Origin: a virus
DNA length: 39,967 nucleotides
Strand: one strand, 5' to 3'
IMG/VR virus record: IMGVR_UViG_3300035681_000051
Location: 1-39,967 of that record
The notes beneath the pieces were generated by a model. The model was not told the origin of the DNA. It worked only from the letters and a program-made list of their open reading frames with translations, and did not search any database. The translations under genes and the position numbers were made by a program. Positions 1-39,099 of this stretch are shown piece by piece. Positions within the stretch are counted from its first letter, which is position 1. Each line of letters starts with the position of its first letter.

Positions 1-139
1 TCACAACCTCAGACGGCTTCAGTGGCTTGCCCTTCTCCGGCTGCAGCTCAAGCATGTCTGCCACCACGTACTTCTTGCCATCGTAGGTGGCGATGACAAG
101 GGCCGAAGAGTCGGACTTGAAGCCAAAGTCGGCCGCAGC
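1..139. repeat. Terminal overlap of the circular contig, left copy
   Basis: Bases 1-139 match 39829-39967. Positions 24-139 are identical. Positions 11, 14 and 23 differ, and all three are third-codon-position changes in terL (Ser, Pro and Pro unchanged). The repeat lies inside a coding gene, so it is best read as assembly overlap of a circular or circularly permuted molecule, not a physical terminal repeat. Confidence 0.85.
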
Positions 140-1078
140 CACGTAACGCTGTAGGTTGTTGTAGTGGGCTGGAAGCGTAAGGTCTGGCACGGTGCAGCTG
201 GTCACGCTGACGGCGTCAAAGAACATTCCGCCAACCATGGCGTCCCGCTCGCAGAAGAACTCACGACGGGCGTTCTCCGGGTCTGACTCCATCTCCTGCC
301 TGACAAGCTCCAGGGTCTCTTGGTCGTCACGTACGAGCGTTGTCGGGGCAATCATGGCCAGGGCAGTGTCCGGTCTCCCGAAGTTCTTCTCCAGGTCCTC
401 TGCCATCATGTTCTCGGTTGGCCATGGCGTGGAGATAAGCATTCCAACGCCGCCGTAAATGAGCCTTGGCTTCAGCGCTCGGTAGATTTCCCTATCGTTC
501 ACCGCGTACTCGCCAGAGTCGCCAGAGTTGAAGAACTCTGCCTCGTCCAGGATGAAGCTGATGATGGTTCTACCACGGGCGCTTACGCCACCCTTGCTGG
601 CGGCAACGGCCTGAATCATCACCAGGCGCCTGTCTGACGGCCTACGAATGGTGATGGAGAACTTGTCCTCAGCGGTCACCAGGGCGTTCAGGTGCTGGTT
701 GTTGCGAATCATCTCGCGAGACATCCCAATGGACAGCTTGGCCGTCTCCTTATCGGGAGCAATCACGAAAACACGTGGAACGTCACCGGGTCCGCACCTA
801 CGAAGGTCTGCGGTCACTGCCTTGTAGATTCCAAAGGCAGAACATAGAGTAGTTTTGCCGCTTCCACGACCAAGTGAGAGCACAATTTTTCTTCTGTGCT
901 TCTTCAGGATTTTGACAGTCTCGTCAAACCCTAGCATCTCCTTTGCAATCGGAATTAACCCGATAGGGAGGTCTGACAGCTGCTCGCCACCAAAGGCAAT
1001 CCTGGCAATCACTTCCTGACCATTGGTCAGTGTGAGCCCTAGAATCTCCTGGCAGAACTCATGAAACCGTATTGACAT
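1..1078 (-). CDS. terL: Terminase large subunit, N-terminal ATPase part (gene split by the contig ends)
   Basis: Packaging motor: its ATPase translocates DNA through the portal and its nuclease cuts concatemers. Reading from ATG at 1078 the frame is open to base 1 and joins, through the terminal overlap, the part at 39290-39967, giving 538 residues, a usual TerL length. Walker A GRGSGKTT lies near residue 70, and Walker B ILDEAEF with its catalytic Glu near residue 177. The first nuclease Asp is in AAADFGFKSD near residue 315. The gene starts just after the tRNA cluster (tRNA-Asn ends at 1102). Head genes follow in the same direction. Confidence 0.95.
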   Translation of the reverse strand, partial: MSIRFHEFCQEILGLTLTNGQEVIARIAFGGEQLSDLPIGLIPIAKEMLGFDETVKILKKHRRKIVLSLGRGSGKTTLCSAFGIYKAVTADLRRCGPGDVPRVFVIAPDKETAKLSIGMSREMIRNNQHLNALVTAEDKFSITIRRPSDRRLVMIQAVAASKGGVSARGRTIISFILDEAEFFNSGDSGEYAVNDREIYRALKPRLIYGGVGMLISTPWPTENMMAEDLEKNFGRPDTALAMIAPTTLVRDDQETLELVRQEMESDPENARREFFCERDAMVGGMFFDAVSVTSCTVPDLTLPAHYNNLQRYVAAADFGFKSDSSALVIATYDGKKYVVADMLELQPEKGKPLKPSEVV

Positions 1079-5169: not shown

Positions 5170-5488
5170 CGTCTTTCAGCTCAATGGTTTCTGTTTTCTG
5201 GAACTTGCCAGCCAGGTTCTTGGCTGCGTCTACGTAAGGTTTGGACATCTTTTCGTAACTAGTCAACCCCGAGGCCACTGCGTTTGCGTACGAATTTCCG
5301 ATTTTCGTAGACCTTACGGCACCTTCAATGGCTGCATTATTTTTCTTCTGGTCCATCAGCCGCTCTACCGTGGGGTAGTGCTTGGTTGTTGGCGGAAGTT
5401 CAGCGTTGTTGGCGCCCGGAACCACCTGGTTCATGCGAGCGTAAACCTCGCGAGCTGCAGCGATTAGCTTGTCCCTGAAGTCACCCAT
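5162..5488 (-). CDS. Hypothetical helical protein (108 aa)
   Basis: Begins MGDFRDKLIAAAREVYAR and ends with an acidic DDE. Predicted largely helical. The start overlaps the upstream TGA (TGATG). It follows the candidate small terminase gene. No domain is recognised. Confidence 0.7.
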   Translation of the reverse strand: MGDFRDKLIAAAREVYARMNQVVPGANNAELPPTTKHYPTVERLMDQKKNNAAIEGAVRSTKIGNSYANAVASGLTSYEKMSKPYVDAAKNLAGKFQKTETIELKDDE

Positions 5489-5973
5489 CACTCGTCATCC
5501 TCGTCCTGGTCATCTCCAGATTCTAGCAGGCGAGCTGGTTCAGTGGGAGGTCTGCCTCTCTCTCTTTCCCATGGCAGAGGCCCAGCTGCAGCCTTAGCTC
5601 TGGACAGGCTCAGTTCTCTACCGGCCTGCTCCCAAGCCGCCTGCTCCGACTGTCTGGCGTCCGTAGCAAGCTTGCTAGCGAGCTTTGCTAGCTCGGGTAC
5701 ACCAGTGATAGCGAACTGAGTGAAGAGGTGTCTGGAGGCAGCCAGCTGCATGGAAGCGCTATTCAGCATGTTCATCACACCGGCAGACAGCTCGGTTCCG
5801 AACTGCTCACGAAGCTCCCTCTCTCTGGCGACCTTGAAGCGCTTGGCGGAGACAATGGACGGCTTCATCTCAGAGGATTCAGTTACCTCTCGGCTGATAC
5901 CGTACGTCAGTCCACGGGAGCGCCTGGTGGCCTTCACAATGGCCTCTGTAACGTTGTCGTATTTCTCCTTCAC
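5488..5973 (-). CDS. Helical protein with acidic tail; possible small terminase (161 aa)
   Basis: Basic N-terminus, long central helices (residues about 45-125) and a strongly acidic C-terminus (GDDQDEDDE). Size and helical build are compatible with a terminase small subunit, and no other TerS candidate is obvious, but no helix-turn-helix is clear and it is several genes from terL. It begins with an ATGA overlap. Treat the terminase idea as inference. Confidence 0.5.
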   Translation of the reverse strand: MKEKYDNVTEAIVKATRRSRGLTYGISREVTESSEMKPSIVSAKRFKVARERELREQFGTELSAGVMNMLNSASMQLAASRHLFTQFAITGVPELAKLASKLATDARQSEQAAWEQAGRELSLSRAKAAAGPLPWERERGRPPTEPARLLESGDDQDEDDE

Positions 5974-6295: not shown

Positions 6296-6509
6296 CTGTT
6301 GTGATGACGAGCACTTGGTTCCCTCTGCTCCGGTCTCTCTCCAAAAAATAAAGAGAACTGCTCAACACGACCTTCGCGGCGGTAACCAAGTTTACCATAG
6401 CTGCAGTCCCATAGCAGTTCTAACGAATCCGAGCTGAGTAACTCTGGTACCAACCAGTAGTGTGTTCTGATTCTGGTATGCCCACACTTCAGCACAGTGT
6501 GGTTTTTTT
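6296..6509 (+). ncRNA. Putative structured small RNA, about 214 nt
   Basis: Bounded by an extended -10 promoter and a textbook terminator, with no plausible coding frame. A perfect 9-bp helix AGAACTGCT/AGCAGTTCT (6354-6362 with 6413-6421) encloses a domain with CTGC/GCAG (about 6401-6416) and GGTAA/TTACC (6381-6385 with 6392-6396) alternatives. CTTGGTT (6314-6320) can also pair with AACCAAG (6384-6390), which would make a pseudoknot or a switch. I recognise no known RNA family. The exact 5' end is inferred from the promoter. Confidence 0.6.
6482..6509 (+). terminator. Rho-independent terminator (plus strand)
   Basis: Stem CCACACT/AGTGTGG (7 perfect pairs), 7-base loop, then seven T residues. 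The T-run is only on the plus-strand side, so it ends a plus-strand transcript although all nearby genes are on the minus strand. Confidence 0.9.
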
Positions 6510-6622
6510 ATGTCCACTCTAGAAAGAGTCAGACATACTTTTTCCTGGTACACCGGTGTAGCTGAACTCTTGGGTGTTCAGGATATTTTGGTGATTTTCC
6601 TGTGTGCTGGGTCCCCTTCGGG

Positions 6623-6931
6623 GCAAAAACCATGCCAGCCTGGGGGTAACAGCCCCACTGTAATCCACTCATACTGTATCCGCTGCCACCATAATCCAGT
6701 GCTGACGGAACTGATTGGCACGGTTCTTGACTGGCATGACTCTTGCCGCTACGCAAAAAGTACTGGCACGGTCTATGCAAGGGTAGAAAAAACTCTGGCA
6801 CGGCTGCTGCAGATAGCAACTACCATGCCAGAGAATACCCCAATGATATCAAGTACTTAGAATGTTGGCATAAGACTTGCTTTTGTGTGCAAATTGCCTA
6901 CATGCAAAGTTTTCATTGGCATGAGGATTGC
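6623..6931. promoter_or_regulatory. Cluster of eight sigma-54-like -24/-12 elements on both strands
   Basis: Each element is TGGCA[CT] followed, with GG-N10-GC spacing, by TGC or TTGC. Plus strand: 6716-6730 (TTGA variant), 6732-6746, 6764-6778, 6796-6810, 6866-6880, 6917-6931. Minus strand: 6623-6637 and 6816-6830. The first four plus elements start 16, 32 and 32 bases apart. No sigma-54 activator is encoded. The 460-base region 6511-6971 holds no convincing gene. Confidence 0.65.
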
Positions 6932-6971
6932 AGGCGCACACAATGTAGGCCTGCAATCCCACAGTGTGGGT

Positions 6972-7208: not shown

Positions 7209-7257
7209 TGGGCCTCCGTAACTACGCGGAATCATTGGAACGCTACAATGGCCATAT

Positions 7258-7335
7258 GACACGAATGTCCTGGTTGGCCTGACATTCATGTCATAGCCCT
7301 TGTTTTCAGCGGGTTTTTGCTATGACTTGCATGTC
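7258..7335. promoter_or_regulatory. Three GACA-N4-TGTC-type dyads (control region 1)
   Basis: Dyads at 7258-7269 (GACACGAATGTC), 7281-7292 (GACATTCATGTC) and 7324-7335 (GACTTGCATGTC). Start spacings are 23 and 43 bases. The same arrangement recurs at 10713-10791, each upstream of a minus-strand gene. Likely operators for a repressor, activator or replication protein. Confidence 0.7.
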
Positions 7336-7351
7336 GCTGCTATGCAAAGAG

Positions 7352-9464: not shown

Positions 9465-10166
9465 TTAGCGAATTACGTTCAGGCGTTTCAGCTTCTTTTT
9501 GCCGCTGCCATGTGCACTGAACGCGATAGCAGCGTTACGGTTGTACAGTGCGGTATCATCCCAGCAAAGCCTACACTCTGCGCATGTGCGGTCCGATGTT
9601 TGGGCGGGGCAGGGAATGACTCGGATGCCTTCAGTTGTTGTCCAGGCTCGTTTACCGTTAGGGAATTCCGAAACAACAACAGCGCCCGCATATCCTGAGA
9701 TTACAGCTGTATACAACTGCTCTTCCGTCTCACATGATGCGAGAACGCTTACGCCGCCCCACATGTGCCTACGGACTTCCCTCCATGCGTGTGTGTATGT
9801 CCAGACCGGACCTTTCCACACATCGCGCACTGCATCTGACAGAATCTTAGTTCCGGTGCTGGTTGTAGAGTCACCTGCTACATGTAGGCGCATTGGTTGG
9901 CTTGAGTAACCCATGCTCGCGGCCACTCGCAGTTCTGCCGCCTCTTCTGCCGCACAATCTATTGCCGTGTTGCTTGCGCTACGCTGCTCCCTAACGCGGT
10001 TATGAATGGCGACGTTACCAGCCTGCGCGTAGCACCCATTGTTGCGTAGCGGACATGCTTCGGGGCATGTTTGGCTAATGGGAGCGTATGTAGCACACAC
10101 TCCCACGCCTAGCTTTCCGTTCTGAGAATCAGCCACAAAGTAGCCAAAGGTGGCACGGCGAGTCAC
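9465..10166 (-). CDS. Cys-rich GP88/DUF7227-like protein (233 aa)
   Basis: The N-terminal half has TCPEACPLRNNGCYAQAG followed by N-x-V-R-x-Q-R, the hallmark of a phage family annotated as gene product 88/DUF7227 (recalled from experience; function unproven, metal binding likely). A second Cys cluster near the end (CPAQTSDRTCAECRLC) could complete a metal site. It overlaps the preceding gene by four bases. Confidence 0.65.
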   Translation of the reverse strand: MTRRATFGYFVADSQNGKLGVGVCATYAPISQTCPEACPLRNNGCYAQAGNVAIHNRVREQRSASNTAIDCAAEEAAELRVAASMGYSSQPMRLHVAGDSTTSTGTKILSDAVRDVWKGPVWTYTHAWREVRRHMWGGVSVLASCETEEQLYTAVISGYAGAVVVSEFPNGKRAWTTTEGIRVIPCPAQTSDRTCAECRLCWDDTALYNRNAAIAFSAHGSGKKKLKRLNVIR

Positions 10167-10671: not shown

Positions 10672-10712
10672 TCGTAACTACTCGGAATCACGTGGACGAA
10701 TTATGGCCATAT

Positions 10713-10791
10713 GACACGAATGTCGCGCTTACCATGACACGAATGTCGTAGCGTCTTGTTTTCAGCGGTTTTCAGCTATGACACGCAAGTC
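10713..10791. promoter_or_regulatory. Three GACA-N4-TGTC-type dyads (control region 2)
   Basis: Dyads at 10713-10724 and 10736-10747 (both GACACGAATGTC) and 10780-10791 (GACACGCAAGTC), start spacings 23 and 44. Flanks ATGGCCATAT and TTGTTTTCAGCGG are shared with the region at 7248-7335. The site sits upstream of the gene ending at 10387. Confidence 0.7.
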
Positions 10792-10858
10792 AGTGCTATG
10801 TAACTTTTGCAAGCCTACTCTCCTTATAGGCCGGCTGTAACTAGACACCTTGACGGCC

Positions 10859-11122
10859 GTTCAGGCGTGCCGTACCAGGCCTAGGAGTTGTTCAGTGTAG
10901 GCGTTCAGCTACCGAATGTGGGTGTTCAGTATACAATGTATACCAATGTACCGAATGGTATGGAATGGTATACAATTGTAGCCGAAAGTATGTAAAGGTA
11001 TACTTTCGCCCATTGTGTAGGTGTTCAGTGGACGCATGTGTGCGTTCAGTACACTATGTGTGCGTTCAGTACACTATGTAGGGTGTTCAGTATACGATGT
11101 AGGTGTTCAGGTGTGTGTTCAG
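10859..11122. repeat. GTTCAG iteron array with inverted repeats; candidate replication origin
   Basis: GTTCAG starts at 10859, 10890, 10903, 10924, 11024, 11044, 11064, 11085, 11105 and 11117. From 11024 the spacing is 20-21 bases with longer unit GTGTTCAGTATACGATGTRG. Between the two groups lie two perfect 9-bp inverted repeats, TGTATACCA/TGGTATACA (10937-10974) and CGAAAGTAT/ATACTTTCG (10983-11008). This is the largest gene-free block in the genome apart from the tRNA cluster and the 6234-6971 block. Iterons plus dyads suggest an origin or a dense protein-binding control region. Confidence 0.65.
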
Positions 11123-11228
11123 TATACGATGTGGGTGGATGTGTTTTTGCGCACATATACTGAAATACCCGACAACTCATCTCTTGCCCCAAATTCGGAG
11201 AGGCGAGAGTGGCGACTGGTTTGAGTGG

Positions 11229-11301
11229 TGACTCACCCAGGACTTGAACCTGGGACCGTCGGGTTAGAAACCCGCTGCTCTATCCGCTGAGCTAGTGAGC
11301 C
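11229..11301 (-). tRNA. tRNA-Arg (UCU)
   Basis: Acceptor GGCTCAC/GTGAGTC (one G-U), D stem GCTC/GAGC, anticodon loop TTTCTAA giving TCT, T arm CCCAGG-TTCAAGT-CCTGGG, discriminator A, no encoded CCA. It decodes AGA. It stands alone, directly downstream of the RNA ligase gene. Confidence 0.95.
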
Positions 11302-16159: not shown

Positions 16160-17470
16160 TCAGCTGTCATGTAAACCCCCAGCCACCAGGCCATCGTTAC
16201 CACTACTATGGCTTTGTCCAGTGTCGTGACTTGTAAAAGTAACAGTACGAGCATTGAACTTCATCCTCACGGTTCCGGTTGGTCCACCACGCTGCTTGCG
16301 GATAATCAGCTCAGCCTCTTCCTTGTCCGCTGTTGGGTTGTAGACCACATCTCGGTACAGGAACATCACTGCGTCTGCGTCCTGCTCTAGAGCACCAGAC
16401 TCGCGAAGGTCACTCATGAGTGGCCGCTTGTCTTCTCGGTGCTCGCAGTTTCTATTCAACTGACTAATACCGATGACTGCGCAGTCAAGCTCCTTGGACA
16501 GCATTTTTAGTCCACGGCTGAACTTTGCCGTTGAACTCTGCGTGTCGTCCGTGTCACCGGTCGCAAGCTGGATGTAGTCCACTGTGATGAGCTTCAGAGG
16601 AAACCCGCGCTTGGCTGCCTGACGGTGGACAATGCGCGCCTTCTGCATAATGGCCCCAATGGAGTATGACGAATCGTCAATGAACCACTTCTCCCGTGGG
16701 ATGCTGTCCGGGATGCCGACCACGCGGGTAAGCTCGTCTTGTGTAACTTTAGACGTGCAAACTTGCATAAGGTTGATTTGCGCACCTTCTGCAATCTCAC
16801 GCTCCGCGTGCTCCTCTGCCCCCATCTCCAGTGAGAAGTCCAGGCAGGAGAACCCCTGGCGCATCACTGCAGCGCGAATGCTCTTGATAAGAGCCGTCTT
16901 GCCCATGGCAGGTCGTCCAGCCACAATGTAAAACTTCTTGGTCCTGAGACCGATGATGTACCGGTCCAGGCTGGTGATTCCAGATGACATTGGCGGCGGC
17001 ACATTGCCATTCAGACGCTCCATGAACAGCTTCAGGTAGTCAGACACCACCTCGTGGCCGTCGTGCGTCTTAGAGGCTCCCGAGGCCGAGTACATGGCCT
17101 TCTCCAGCTGAGCACAAATCTCCTCTGGGTTGGCACTGGAGCCATTGGCGATGGCCTTGCAGGCTTGGGTCATGCGGTGGACAGCGGAAGACCGGCGAAG
17201 GTCCTTGCAGATGGACTCCACGTCTACGTCACGAACCAGGCGCTCCACGTCTAGGCCATCCACGAACGTGCGTGGTGGTGCCCCCTTACGCTCCAGAATG
17301 GACACCGCGTTCACACTCATCCCTGAAGCCAGAAGCTCCTGGGAGACGGAAAACAGAAGGCGAGCGTTGGCTGACTGGAAGTCGTCCCTGGACAGGGACG
17401 TGAGAATGGTGGCTTGCGCCTCCTGGGAACCGTACACGAGTGCTGCGCAGACTGATGCTTCTACACCCAT
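16160..17470 (-). CDS. dnaB: DnaB-type replicative helicase (436 aa)
   Basis: An N-terminal helical domain (about 1-130) is followed by the RecA-like motor: Walker A GRPAMGKT (185-192), Walker B VDYIQL (297-302), and the H3-H4 region with ISQLNR and DLRESGALEQDADAVMFLYR (354-373). It unwinds the fork 5' to 3'. No primase or polymerase is recognised nearby, so the phage probably uses the host replisome. Start overlaps the upstream stop (TAATG). Confidence 0.95.
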   Translation of the reverse strand: MGVEASVCAALVYGSQEAQATILTSLSRDDFQSANARLLFSVSQELLASGMSVNAVSILERKGAPPRTFVDGLDVERLVRDVDVESICKDLRRSSAVHRMTQACKAIANGSSANPEEICAQLEKAMYSASGASKTHDGHEVVSDYLKLFMERLNGNVPPPMSSGITSLDRYIIGLRTKKFYIVAGRPAMGKTALIKSIRAAVMRQGFSCLDFSLEMGAEEHAEREIAEGAQINLMQVCTSKVTQDELTRVVGIPDSIPREKWFIDDSSYSIGAIMQKARIVHRQAAKRGFPLKLITVDYIQLATGDTDDTQSSTAKFSRGLKMLSKELDCAVIGISQLNRNCEHREDKRPLMSDLRESGALEQDADAVMFLYRDVVYNPTADKEEAELIIRKQRGGPTGTVRMKFNARTVTFTSHDTGQSHSSGNDGLVAGGLHDS

Positions 17471-34368: not shown

Positions 34369-34751
34369 TACACGCTACCCCACTCAAACTCAAGCATGAG
34401 GGTTGCCGTGGTAAGCAGGTCAACTGCAGCCCCGGCGTCGGTATACGTCTCAAGCTGAATGGTTCTGGCGGAAGGCGAGTAGCTGGCCATGACGAGTCTG
34501 GCTAGGACGTTTGCCCCTGCGGAGACTGGCATAACCTGAGCGCTCGCCCACTTGATGACTCCACCCTGCGTATCGTTGAACGTCACAAGGTATCTGCCGG
34601 TTGCGGCGTTGTAGGTCACAGAGCGAACGTTGTCGCCGTAGACCCTCGTGCAGTTAGCAGCGGCCCCACCGCCAAGGAACCTTGCGGTGTCCCTGACGGT
34701 TTTCCCATTTCGGGAGCTGGAGCCCAGGTTGCTAGAGGCCGGGATAGGCAT
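34368..34751 (-). CDS. Head-associated protein, possible decoration protein (127 aa)
   Basis: A beta-rich small protein (VRSVTYNAATGRYLVTFNDT, ARTIQLETYTDAGAAVDLL, TATLMLEFEWG) directly after the major capsid gene with a one-base stop-start overlap. Position and size suit a capsid decoration or head fibre protein. No family is assigned. Confidence 0.6.
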   Translation of the reverse strand: MPIPASSNLGSSSRNGKTVRDTARFLGGGAAANCTRVYGDNVRSVTYNAATGRYLVTFNDTQGGVIKWASAQVMPVSAGANVLARLVMASYSPSARTIQLETYTDAGAAVDLLTTATLMLEFEWGSV

Positions 34752-35992
34752 TAGGCACCGAAGTTCTGGAGGTAAACGTGCGGACCGGGGTTCTTGCAGC
34801 GCGTGTTACCGTAGCTCACGAAGCGGACTTCGTAGGCGTCGGCGTTGCTAAGGCGCTGGAACTTCAGACCGTCAAGCTCGCCAAGGTGCGGCCAAGCGCC
34901 AAGGGACTTGATGCTGAACTCGTCCAGCTTCAGGAGGTAAGCGCGGTTACGCTTCATGAATGGGTCGCCAAGGATTTCAATCGGGCCGTTATCGCCCTCA
35001 ATCGTGACCTTGCTGAATCCGTGCACGCCAGCAGTGCTGCCGGGGCGCTCGTACTCAATCTTGCCACCAAGGGACTTCTTCATCGCAGCAACCTCAATGT
35101 TGTTCGCGATAAGAACAGTCGGGGTTCCGATGCCCTGGAAGCCAGCCTGCGCAGAGGCGTCAACCACCGCGTCCTCCATCGCCCAACCGGTGTAGTCCAC
35201 GGACTGACCAGCAAGACGAACGGGGTCCTGGTTTCTGTTGAGACCAAGAAGGGTTCCGGGGGTGGCTCCGCCGACCACGTAGGACGGGATGCCGAGGATG
35301 ACGGCGTTGTTCGCCCCACCAACGGACTGGTCGCCCGAGCGAACGAAGTAGTCGGTAGCCGTAACGTCGGTAATGAGGGTGTTGAGGTTGGCCGAGAACG
35401 TCAGGGTTCCCGAGCGTCTGTTGATGCCAGTCACTCTCGCGCGAGCCGCACCACCAACGCGAAGCGTGGGGGAAAGACCGGTCGTGGAAACCGCTCTGAG
35501 CGTCATGTTCAGCTCAAAGTAGTTCATGTTGGTACCAGCGGCCATGGTGATGGTCGTGGCCGCCACGGCAGAGGCTAGCTGGCCGAGAACACCGTCACCG
35601 TCACCCCACAGGTACGTGGACGTGACAGCCAGCTCGGTGCTGGCGATTCCCTTGGTCTCATTCTCCCAAAGGTCAACCATTGCACCCTCGGTCTTCACGG
35701 CAGCCTCAGCAGCCTCGCCAGTGATTCTGGCGACACCGTAGTGGCTCACGCGGGTCAACGCGAAGCGCAGGTAGTTACCCTGGAAGACGTTGGACTGAGC
35801 CTCTGCAAGGTCACCAGAGCTACCCTGCGGGTAAGCGTTCTGGATGGGGACGTACATCAGCTCGCCGACGAAGTCTTTCTCCTTCTTCAGGCGGTTGAGG
35901 GTCACAAAGGACTTCTGGATGGAAGCCGGGATTTCGCCATTAGGGTACAGAACCTTAAGGGCTGCCTGGGAGGCGGCAATAGTTGCGGTCAT
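34751..35992 (-). CDS. Major capsid protein, HK97-type fold (413 aa)
   Basis: Located after portal and scaffold, with the composition and secondary pattern of an HK97-fold capsid: N-terminal arm, LYVPIQNAYPQG-type E-loop region and a C-terminal spine/P-domain (IEILGDPFMKRNRAYLLKLD). It begins MTATIAASQAALKVLYPNGE. A scaffold gene precedes it. The fold is inferred from context and pattern, not from a signature motif. Confidence 0.85.
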   Translation of the reverse strand: MTATIAASQAALKVLYPNGEIPASIQKSFVTLNRLKKEKDFVGELMYVPIQNAYPQGSSGDLAEAQSNVFQGNYLRFALTRVSHYGVARITGEAAEAAVKTEGAMVDLWENETKGIASTELAVTSTYLWGDGDGVLGQLASAVAATTITMAAGTNMNYFELNMTLRAVSTTGLSPTLRVGGAARARVTGINRRSGTLTFSANLNTLITDVTATDYFVRSGDQSVGGANNAVILGIPSYVVGGATPGTLLGLNRNQDPVRLAGQSVDYTGWAMEDAVVDASAQAGFQGIGTPTVLIANNIEVAAMKKSLGGKIEYERPGSTAGVHGFSKVTIEGDNGPIEILGDPFMKRNRAYLLKLDEFSIKSLGAWPHLGELDGLKFQRLSNADAYEVRFVSYGNTRCKNPGPHVYLQNFGA

Positions 35993-37113: not shown

Positions 37114-39084
37114 TTAGAAAGGCATTTGCCCACCTGGACCACCAGGAGGCATACCTTCAGGGATTTGGCCAGGCATGTCTCCTGGCGGCAGTGGCATAGG
37201 CGGCGGAGGCGCTGGCGGCATGCCCATCTCAGGGCCCGGCATAGCCATACCGTCAATGAGTTGATTATCGGGAGCCGGTGGCTTCTGCAGTGCATCAATG
37301 TCCTCCAGGAACTTCACGAGCATGTCGTAAACTTCGTCGTCGTAGTCATCTCGTACACGGTACAGGCTGATGTAGTTCAGCGTGATTACCCGTGCCTCCA
37401 CAAGGTCATCCCACGGCATTGGGGCCAGGTATCGCTTCTTGCGTACGATGGTGGTGAGCGTCTTGCGAATGATGTCAGCCGGAGCACTGGCCAGGTCATC
37501 CGACTGGGCAAGGTCTGGAACCTCAAGAAGTCCACGCATGTTGTTCGGAATCTGAGACACCTTGGACAGCGCATCCACCTTGCCGGCAAACGTCTGCGGG
37601 AGACCGCTTGCAGACTGCACGAACAGGACCATGTTCTTGCGGTCCATGTTGATTTCGGAGAAGTTCAGCTTGGTGAAGCTGGTCTTCATCTTGGTACCGG
37701 TCGGGGCTCTGGCCACAACGTCCTTACCGGAAGCACGAAGCTCCTCAGCCTCATCCAGAATCACCTCAGCAAGCTCAATCATGGCCTGCTCGTACTGCTC
37801 GTGATTCATGGCGTGACGAGCTGCACCCTGGTCAACCATTCGCTCTAGGAACGGCGAACCCACGTCTCTCATTTGCGCAGGAAGGCCACCGGTGGACTCA
37901 AACTGGCTGATGCCCAGGGTTCCACGCATGCGCTCAGGCATGCCGTTACGCTCAGCGTAGGCGTCGGGGGTAATGGGTGTTGGGTTCCACTCCCTCACGG
38001 ACGAGCTTGGGTCCATCTTAGTCAGCAGGACCGCGCCCTCTACGTCATCAATGTGCTGAGGAACGATTCCGCTGTCCTCCCTCACAATGATTCTCGGCAC
38101 ACCCAGAAGGTCATGTGCTCTATCAATGCGCTTCACCATCTTGGTAAGCGTACGCTGCAGCGGAAGGAGTCTCTTCACGGCAGACTCGCCGTAGTACCCT
38201 CCGAGAGACAGGTTGAACTTCATCTTCACCAGCGGAAAGCGCTTGCGCTTGTACTCGCGGTCAATCAGCGTGCAGTTCTTGATGGTGACGCAGTAGCGGC
38301 CGTTCTTGCCTGAGCTGTCGGGAAGGTGCCAGGTCTCCCATACGGTGACCATGTCTCCACGGTGCTCTGGAACGCCCGCACGAACGTCGTCGTCATCGTT
38401 ACCTGGAGCGTTGGCGATGGCCTCAAAGCGCTCCTCAGCCGTACCGAACAGTCCGTCGTCTTCCTTCCCGTACTCTTCCAGCAGAAGGAATCGGTCAATG
38501 TTGGTCTTTACGTGAATGCTTCTTGGGTTGCCGTGGCGGGCTTCCAGGCGGTCCACGAACACGTTTCTCGGGGTGGCTCTGGAGACGGTAATTCGGTACT
38601 CACCGTCGTCCTCGCAGGAGCCCACGCGCAGGAATCCAGTGCCATATACAAGCATGTCGGCTCCAGACTCTGGGACTGCTACGGCATGCACCTTTGCGTC
38701 ACGGAAGATACCTTCCATCCAACGGCTAGCAGCAATGCCTCTCTCGTGCTCCTCAAAGTCTGCCTCGGACGTACTGAACGCCGGAACTACCTTGGTCTTG
38801 AACAGCTGCGCATGTAGCGTTTCAATACTGTTCGCCAGCTCGTTCTGCTCAATCTCTTCCGAGAAGGCAGACACGTCGGTATCAGGCTCCCCGAGCTGCG
38901 ACATGTCCACGCCGTACTCCATGGCGTAGATTCTGTACGCCTCGTAACGGTTGGCCTGGTCGTCTCTAATCTGAGCGATGAGGGGCTGGATAACCTCGTG
39001 CGGCTTCTTGTTGTACGCTGCCGCATTCCAGAACTGAGCTGTCTGCCATTCTGGACGAGTCTTTTGTGCTCGGCTTTTTGCCAT
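37114..39084 (-). CDS. Portal protein (656 aa)
   Basis: Forms the dodecameric ring for DNA entry and tail attachment. Start at ATG 39084 (MAKSRAQKTRPEW). Portal-type features: an N-terminal helical wing, long central helices (FESTGGLPAQMRDVGSPFLE, then HEQYEQAMIELAEVILDEAE) and a Pro/Met/Gly-rich disordered tail ending GGPGGQMPF. Length fits podovirus portals, and gene order terminase-portal-scaffold-capsid supports it. Confidence 0.85.
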   Translation of the reverse strand: MAKSRAQKTRPEWQTAQFWNAAAYNKKPHEVIQPLIAQIRDDQANRYEAYRIYAMEYGVDMSQLGEPDTDVSAFSEEIEQNELANSIETLHAQLFKTKVVPAFSTSEADFEEHERGIAASRWMEGIFRDAKVHAVAVPESGADMLVYGTGFLRVGSCEDDGEYRITVSRATPRNVFVDRLEARHGNPRSIHVKTNIDRFLLLEEYGKEDDGLFGTAEERFEAIANAPGNDDDDVRAGVPEHRGDMVTVWETWHLPDSSGKNGRYCVTIKNCTLIDREYKRKRFPLVKMKFNLSLGGYYGESAVKRLLPLQRTLTKMVKRIDRAHDLLGVPRIIVREDSGIVPQHIDDVEGAVLLTKMDPSSSVREWNPTPITPDAYAERNGMPERMRGTLGISQFESTGGLPAQMRDVGSPFLERMVDQGAARHAMNHEQYEQAMIELAEVILDEAEELRASGKDVVARAPTGTKMKTSFTKLNFSEINMDRKNMVLFVQSASGLPQTFAGKVDALSKVSQIPNNMRGLLEVPDLAQSDDLASAPADIIRKTLTTIVRKKRYLAPMPWDDLVEARVITLNYISLYRVRDDYDDEVYDMLVKFLEDIDALQKPPAPDNQLIDGMAMPGPEMGMPPAPPPPMPLPPGDMPGQIPEGMPPGGPGGQMPF

Positions 39085-39099
39085 GCACAATCTATGCCA

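Follow-up and report, generated by a model that had tools for sequence, protein, structure and literature searches.

A gap in an uncultured virus genome holds a real and localised array of eight sigma-54-type sites, and arrays of this kind recur among uncultured phages; the element was unreported within the literature scope that we searched. The array elements are very probably sigma-54 sites, as judged from the sequence. We favour the reading that the array is a bound and mostly silent sponge for sigma-54, over the reading that its sites are promoters, with a rough probability of 0.5.

Eight sites in one gap of the window

The window, that is, the whole stretch of DNA analysed, is an uncultured virus record of 39,967 b. 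Its ends carry a 139-b terminal direct repeat whose copies are 98% identical, and the map is therefore probably complete and circular. All supported genes are on the minus strand (Table 1), and they also include genes for an Erf annealing protein, a PD-(D/E)XK nuclease, an RNA ligase and a DUF932 protein. The DUF932 protein is identical in two other uncultured records (G001 and G002), where the site letters are identical too. The capsid protein identified relatives independently of the motif, with 64-100% identity in nine loci. The phage collection had no relative of the window by DNA or by capsid protein, and by TerL it had one distant enrichment-culture virus (33%).

Table 1 Features of the window, and one piece of a bacterial-bin contig.
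Feature	Position	Strand	Remark
Terminase large subunit (TerL)	2-1078	-	via relatives
Flanking gene, 161 aa	5488-5973	-	50% identical to the G004 gene beside the cluster
Terminator-like hairpin and T run	6482-6502	+	edge of the gap
Gap holding the array, without supported gene	6496-6971		limits inferred from the ORF list
Sigma-54-type site TGGCATGGTTTTTGCC	6622-6637	-	16.9 bits
Sigma-54-type site TGGCACGGTTCTTGAC	6716-6731	+	11.9 bits; weakest, GA for GC at -12
Sigma-54-type site TGGCATGACTCTTGCC	6732-6747	+	16.3 bits; abuts the 6716 site
Sigma-54-type site TGGCACGGTCTATGCA	6764-6779	+	16.9 bits
Sigma-54-type site TGGCACGGCTGCTGCA	6796-6811	+	17.5 bits
Sigma-54-type site TGGCATGGTAGTTGCT	6815-6830	-	18.6 bits; best in the window
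Sigma-54-type site TGGCATAAGACTTGCT	6866-6881	+	17.0 bits
Sigma-54-type site TGGCATGAGGATTGCA	6917-6932	+	17.2 bits
Flanking ORF, 105 aa	6972-7289	-	no family match
DnaB helicase	16160-17470	-	
Head protein	34751-35992	-	
Portal-like gene	37114-39090	-	
L296	G060:C75:294000-313999		

We scanned the window with a matrix of 29 Salmonella sigma-54 sites given in PMC3844500, using a threshold of at least 11 bits. The whole window had 21 matches, and eight of them lay within 320 b from position 6622. The largest 320-b cluster in 200 dinucleotide shuffles of the window had three matches, and eight was reached by none of the 200. In this matrix scan, which the first-pass annotation had proposed, the cluster was unique in the window. 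Loose matches with up to two mismatches numbered 42 across the window against 28.3 expected, and 1 of 100 shuffles reached 42. The exceptional feature of the window is the clustering; the window-wide excess of loose matches is only moderate.

The array spans 6622-6932, and each site is 16 b long. The first-pass annotation had described eight elements, six on the plus and two on the minus strand, with exact GG-N10-GC spacing, and had likened them to the -24/-12 elements of sigma-54 promoters. All eight were recovered in place, and our recount gave the same distances (16, 32 and 32 b) between the first four plus starts. The GG-N10-GC spacing was kept in seven sites; the 6716 site has GA and ends in TTGAC, a departure that the annotation had flagged as a TTGA end. 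Strict TTGC was found in five of the eight, with ATGC in the 6764 site and CTGC in the 6796 site. C or T precedes every site, at a consensus position that the annotation had not used. The likeness to sigma-54 elements was borne out by matrix scores of 11.9-18.6 bits, by the fit of the free flank positions and by enrichment of the exact spacing only. The minus site at 6815 is convergent with the plus site at 6796, 19 b from start to start.

The region had also been described as gene-free. Two mechanical ORFs do cross the array (6510-6860 on the plus strand and 6529-6819 on the minus strand), and neither has a homolog in the compared loci, so the description is supported, though unproven. Downstream of the plus sites there is no supported gene, and the neighbours with support lie on the minus strand, in agreement with the earlier statement that no plus gene lies downstream. 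The array sits between gene blocks of equal direction. The two sites on the minus strand might act for ORFs of that strand. The hairpin at the edge of the gap is by itself no evidence, because the scanned region had five terminator-like hairpins against 5.7 expected.

Several other features of the window were observed. The tRNA genes for Asn, Pro, Leu and Tyr are consecutive at 1101-1610, and tRNA-Arg lies apart at 11226-11301. A further repeat array at 10889-11137, likewise free of supported genes, contains five 23-b units like GTGTTCAGTATACGATGTAGGTG and about nine GTTCAG cores, counted by eye; it is possibly another site array. A duplication of about 100 b (7248-7347 and 10703-10803; 80-82% identical) contains palindromes like GACACGAATGTC. 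Its copies lie at or just 5' of the starts of two minus-strand ORFs and are perhaps operator or promoter copies.

Recurrence, spacing and conservation of the arrays

We applied the same matrix and threshold to 12-kb pieces of six relatives, with 200 shuffles each. The pieces of G004, G005, G006 and G009 were those in which sites had already been seen, and for G007 and G010 the default was the first 12 kb. Clear clusters were present in G004, where the largest had five sites (0 of 200 shuffles), and in G006, where 320 b contained eight sites and 1.2 kb contained 19 (0 of 200 shuffles). Weaker clusters were found in G007 (three sites in 320 b, 1 of 200 shuffles; four in 1.2 kb, 0 of 200), G005 (largest cluster three sites, 1 and 2 of 200) and G009 (two sites in 320 b, 17 of 200; three in 1.2 kb, 4 of 200). 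The G010 piece had no cluster, its largest being one site (149 of 200 shuffles), which counts against the sponge. The first-pass annotation had named absence of the elements from close relatives as a refutation, and such absence was seen only in the G010 piece; clusters were clear in two relatives and weaker in three. The G004 cluster lies between homologs of the window genes at 5488-5973 and 9465-10166, with 48-50% protein identity.

We searched 2.9 million viral contigs for two tandem elements within 30 b. The true spacing (N4) gave at least 120 matches, compared with two for a spacer one base shorter (N3), two for a spacer one base longer (N5) and three for swapped elements. Triple tandem arrays had at least 120 matches in the viral contigs, whereas the bacterial genomes, 257 Gb in all, gave 22. 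The first-pass annotation had held that phages rarely carry sigma-54 promoters; since the pair and triple scans each gave at least 120 matches, this claim needs revising for uncultured phages.

Among the 22 bacterial triple arrays, 14 were near-identical repeats within frames of at least 102 codons, three (L185, L191 and L192) had diverged copies and overlapped frames of 122-168 codons, and five (L177, L179, L182, L186 and L189) lay outside any 100-codon frame. L177 is a phage contig in a Sphingobacteriales bin, with genes 80-90% like those of viral loci. It is probably misbinned, because its TerL shares 67% identity with the TerL of Pelagibacter phage HTVC115P. A 383-kb contig in a Chitinophagales bin (G060:C75) had 35 exact sites, 31 of them forward. 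In the 20 kb of it that we read, 12 of 30 sites were followed within 200 b by a codirectional mechanical ORF, which favours promoters and was counted against the sponge. The bin had no Terminase_6N match, and few family matches were found among ten ORFs of the contig. In two pieces of the contig (L296 and L297), some sigma-54-type sites are shortly upstream of small genes.

Exact sites were also counted in 14 phage-collection records, most of them cultured and including phages of Pelagibacter, Roseobacter, Rhizobium, Sinorhizobium and Aeromonas. Twelve had none and two had one, a result that was counted against the sponge; with no positive record, it does not distinguish phages of hosts with rpoN from phages of hosts without it. 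Pelagibacter is not known to have rpoN. BLAST of the array letters against phages and plasmids returned single weak pieces, from two Listeria phage records and ten Vibrio plasmids, with E values of 0.4 to 3, and these were taken as chance. Among the top-ranked papers of an open-access library, which contains few papers from subscription journals, none described arrays of sigma-54 sites in phages. One phage paper (PMC7693777) describes a putative sigma-54-like protein rather than sites. The array is apparently a viral DNA element so far undescribed.

We identified 962 exact sites in 207 viral loci, 39 of them isolated. At positions left free by the search, the 846 distinct sites had C or T before TGG in 84% and A or T after TTGC in 90%. 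All or all but one of the exact sites lay within 1.4 kb in 7 of 12 whole records, and they were more spread in the remaining five (G013, G028, G034, G036 and G065); a reversed control pattern gave 0 of 12.

The distance between same-strand neighbours was analysed over 15-45 b, a range unbiased by the search. Of 194 distances, 14 were 15-24 b, 99 were 25-29 b, eight were 30-34 b and 73 were 35-45 b. With one pair taken per locus, 37 of 93 were at 25-29 b against 15 expected. The preference persisted after 229 arrays were merged by similarity into 111 groups (one of 98), in which no same-strand pair was found at 19-23 b. Neighbours are spaced as if complexes were packed. The window spacings of 16, 32, 32 and 51 b fall outside this preference, and this was counted against the sponge. 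Helical phasing was considered and dropped: all periods tried between 9.5 and 11.5 b gave much the same concentration (R 0.40-0.42, with a uniform maximum of 0.23-0.26), so we make no helical claim, while the spacing preference itself is real.

Some arrays grew by duplication, since 24% of 41 adjacent spacer pairs were at least 80% identical; 25 of the 41 were less than 60% alike and yet kept the spacing. Such growth is what an origin of the arrays by chance or as a tandem-repeat artefact would have in its favour. We regard that origin as refuted by the shuffles of the window, by the spacing controls and by the conservation of the core letters described below.

We examined conservation in L064-type arrays, aligned over six sites that were unable to belong to the search seed. 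Ten distinct homologs, drawn from the 65 further loci that carry the TerS-like gene described below, were compared, and the rest were unaligned over 90 b or were duplicates. The core letters had no difference in 518 comparisons. Differences were found in 8 of 116 at positions 6-7, in 38 of 229 in the N4 spacer and in 83 of 571 between sites, and sites in both orientations were kept. These counts indicate that the core bases are under selection in L064-type arrays, the one family analysed. A sponge calls for excess sites kept by selection; the window has eight sites in 320 b, and the L064-type arrays have the unchanged core. That the selection result covers L064-type arrays and not the window array was counted against the sponge; the close copies of the window array carry identical site letters.

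Gene context and the reader of the sites

We determined the orientation of sites relative to supported flanking genes, using one representative per array group. Where both flanking genes ran one way, 41 of 85 sites followed them, as expected at random. In divergent gaps (108 sites) a site has a codirectional gene ahead whichever way it points, and in convergent gaps (17 sites) it never does. Where the downstream gene alone was known, 81 of 99 sites faced it codirectionally; this leans to promoters or to more divergent gaps and was counted against the sponge. From a site to the nearest supported start downstream in its own direction, the median distance was 930 b. When 142 arrays were placed among mechanical ORFs, 71 were inside mostly short ORFs and 49 were outside with an ORF on each side, 26 of the latter in divergent gaps.

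A family of TerS-like genes gave a second orientation bias. The family consists of a protein of about 130 aa (L064:6477-6863) and 65 homologs, with one AT-hook match; the name reflects position, as the genes mostly adjoin those for endolysin and TerL. Array sites lay within 1.5 kb upstream of 65 of the 66 genes and downstream of none. Among 307 upstream sites, 253 pointed away from the gene, which again counts against the sponge. This bias and that of the 81 sites fit promoters for the other arm, though a divergent gap produces such a bias whatever the orientation.

The sites could thus be working sigma-54 promoters, tandem and partly bidirectional, forming a hub at the junction of transcription arms and activated by enhancer-binding proteins of the host during nitrogen or other stress. 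The good -24/-12 elements, the two biases, the divergent gaps and the codirectional ORFs of G060:C75 favour this reading. It is nevertheless unlikely in our judgement: the plus sites of the window lack a supported codirectional gene downstream, orientation is random where both flanking genes agree, the next start is distant, up to ten sites are packed in one array with many convergent, and the array records examined had no activator domain. The bidirectional control hub offered by the first-pass annotation is weakened for the window array because no supported gene follows its plus sites and because orientation is random in codirectional contexts. Such sites may serve as promoters in some array phages; the window array does not look like a promoter.

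Many arrays lie in strand-switch gaps, which are divergent and, in G048, convergent. Together with the stability of closed complexes, which need an activator to open (PMC7057263), these positions would suit a silent sigma-54 holoenzyme acting as a roadblock or insulator between phage gene blocks, without host titration. We consider this improbable, because one or two sites would suffice and because the blocks on either side of the window array run in the same direction.

Reading of the motif by another phage or host protein, for packaging (a terminase small subunit) or as iterons of a replication initiator, was also considered. Besides the position of sites upstream of TerS-like genes, it is favoured by the array lying 1.3-6.4 kb upstream of TerL in eight of the nine genomes, out of 15 array genomes, in which blastp found TerL (the TerL match of G051 is weak). 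Arrays tend to sit upstream of the terminase gene, and this was counted against the sponge, which does not need such placement. We nevertheless think another reader quite unlikely: the motif fits sigma-54 with its free flank positions included, some arrays are nearer to genes for tail fibre, baseplate or Cas4-like proteins, and the TerS-like members scanned had no terminase family or PHROG match. In addition, blastp found no protein common to all 15 array phages, the window included; at E 1e-3 it misses distant homologs, and some of the records may be fragments. The widest family, with a DNA polymerase as its representative, occurred in 8 of the 15. Most pairs of array phages shared 0-3 proteins, and a group of four (G035, G037, G049 and G056) shared 5-16. 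The suggestion that a phage protein reads a GGCA-N7-TGC dyad is likewise disfavoured, because the motif lacks symmetry and blastp found no protein that these phages have in common.

The sigma-54 DNA-binding domain (PF04552) and the activator domain (PF00158) were absent from 46 array records and from the window and eight relatives. In control genomes, PF04552 was found in 4 of 14 and a permissive PF00158 in 14 of 14. Because the array phages have no all-shared protein and the array records examined have neither domain, the reader of the sites is most likely host RpoN. Of 8 bins whose arrays are probably non-coding, 7 had RpoN, compared with 9 of 14 bins with arrays in coding repeats; the comparison does not discriminate and was counted against the sponge.

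The proposed sponge and known systems

Of the roles offered by the first-pass annotation, we favour the decoy that titrates host sigma-54 polymerase. According to this sponge reading, the sites would be kept for being bound and not for driving neighbouring genes. Sigma-54, either alone or bound in RNA polymerase holoenzyme, would settle on them as closed complexes, which would remain silent unless an activator acted. Such complexes are stable and need an activator to open (PMC7057263), so an array can hold sigma-54 without transcription. Replication of the phage genome would then multiply the sites, and sigma-54 would be drawn from host promoters. An E. coli cell has about a hundred sigma-54 molecules, a number that eight sites on some tens of phage genomes would exceed. 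Two holoenzymes could hardly occupy a pair of convergent sites 18-22 b apart at the same time, which was counted against the sponge. We infer that a lowered sigma-54 regulon helps the phage, as we infer RpoN binding and titration. The regulon includes pili and flagella in some hosts. In Salmonella, its members include nitrogen genes, phage-shock genes and possibly CRISPR-associated ones (PMC3844500).

Extending this reading beyond the window, we tentatively suggest that closely packed host sigma-54 sites form a widespread type of viral element. Such arrays would need no viral protein; they would act as a nucleic-acid sponge that replication multiplies, would turn the host regulon down, and would have arisen or spread in many unrelated phages. 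If true, phages would have a protein-free route against host transcription that recurs in unrelated lineages, and their success would be tied to the sigma-54 regulon. Arrays might then mark rpoN-bearing hosts, and a class of gene-free phage DNA left blank by annotation would be explained.

The arrays share their -24/-12 elements and GG-N10-GC spacing with known sigma-54 promoters, which precede the genes that they serve (PMC3844500, PMC7057263); the plus sites of the window, in contrast, have no supported gene to serve. Unlike those promoters, arrays have up to ten adjacent sites, often on both strands. Known sigma-54 promoters are rarely stacked. The datA locus of E. coli is a chromosomal cluster of DnaA boxes that lowers free DnaA. 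Both datA and the arrays are clusters of sites for a host DNA-binding protein, with titration by the arrays being the proposed part; the arrays differ in being viral, multiplied by phage replication and directed at a sigma factor. The stoperators of mycobacteriophages are also many asymmetric sites in a phage, lying genome-wide and read by the phage repressor (PMC9283540). In contrast, the arrays are mostly localised, as the 7 of 12 records with sites within 1.4 kb and the 39 isolated sites among 962 indicate, and they have no shared phage protein. The T7 proteins Gp2 and Ocr act on host RNA polymerase (PMC3778932, PMC7064336). The arrays are DNA rather than protein and, if the sponge holds, would share with Gp2 and Ocr the aim of altering host transcription.
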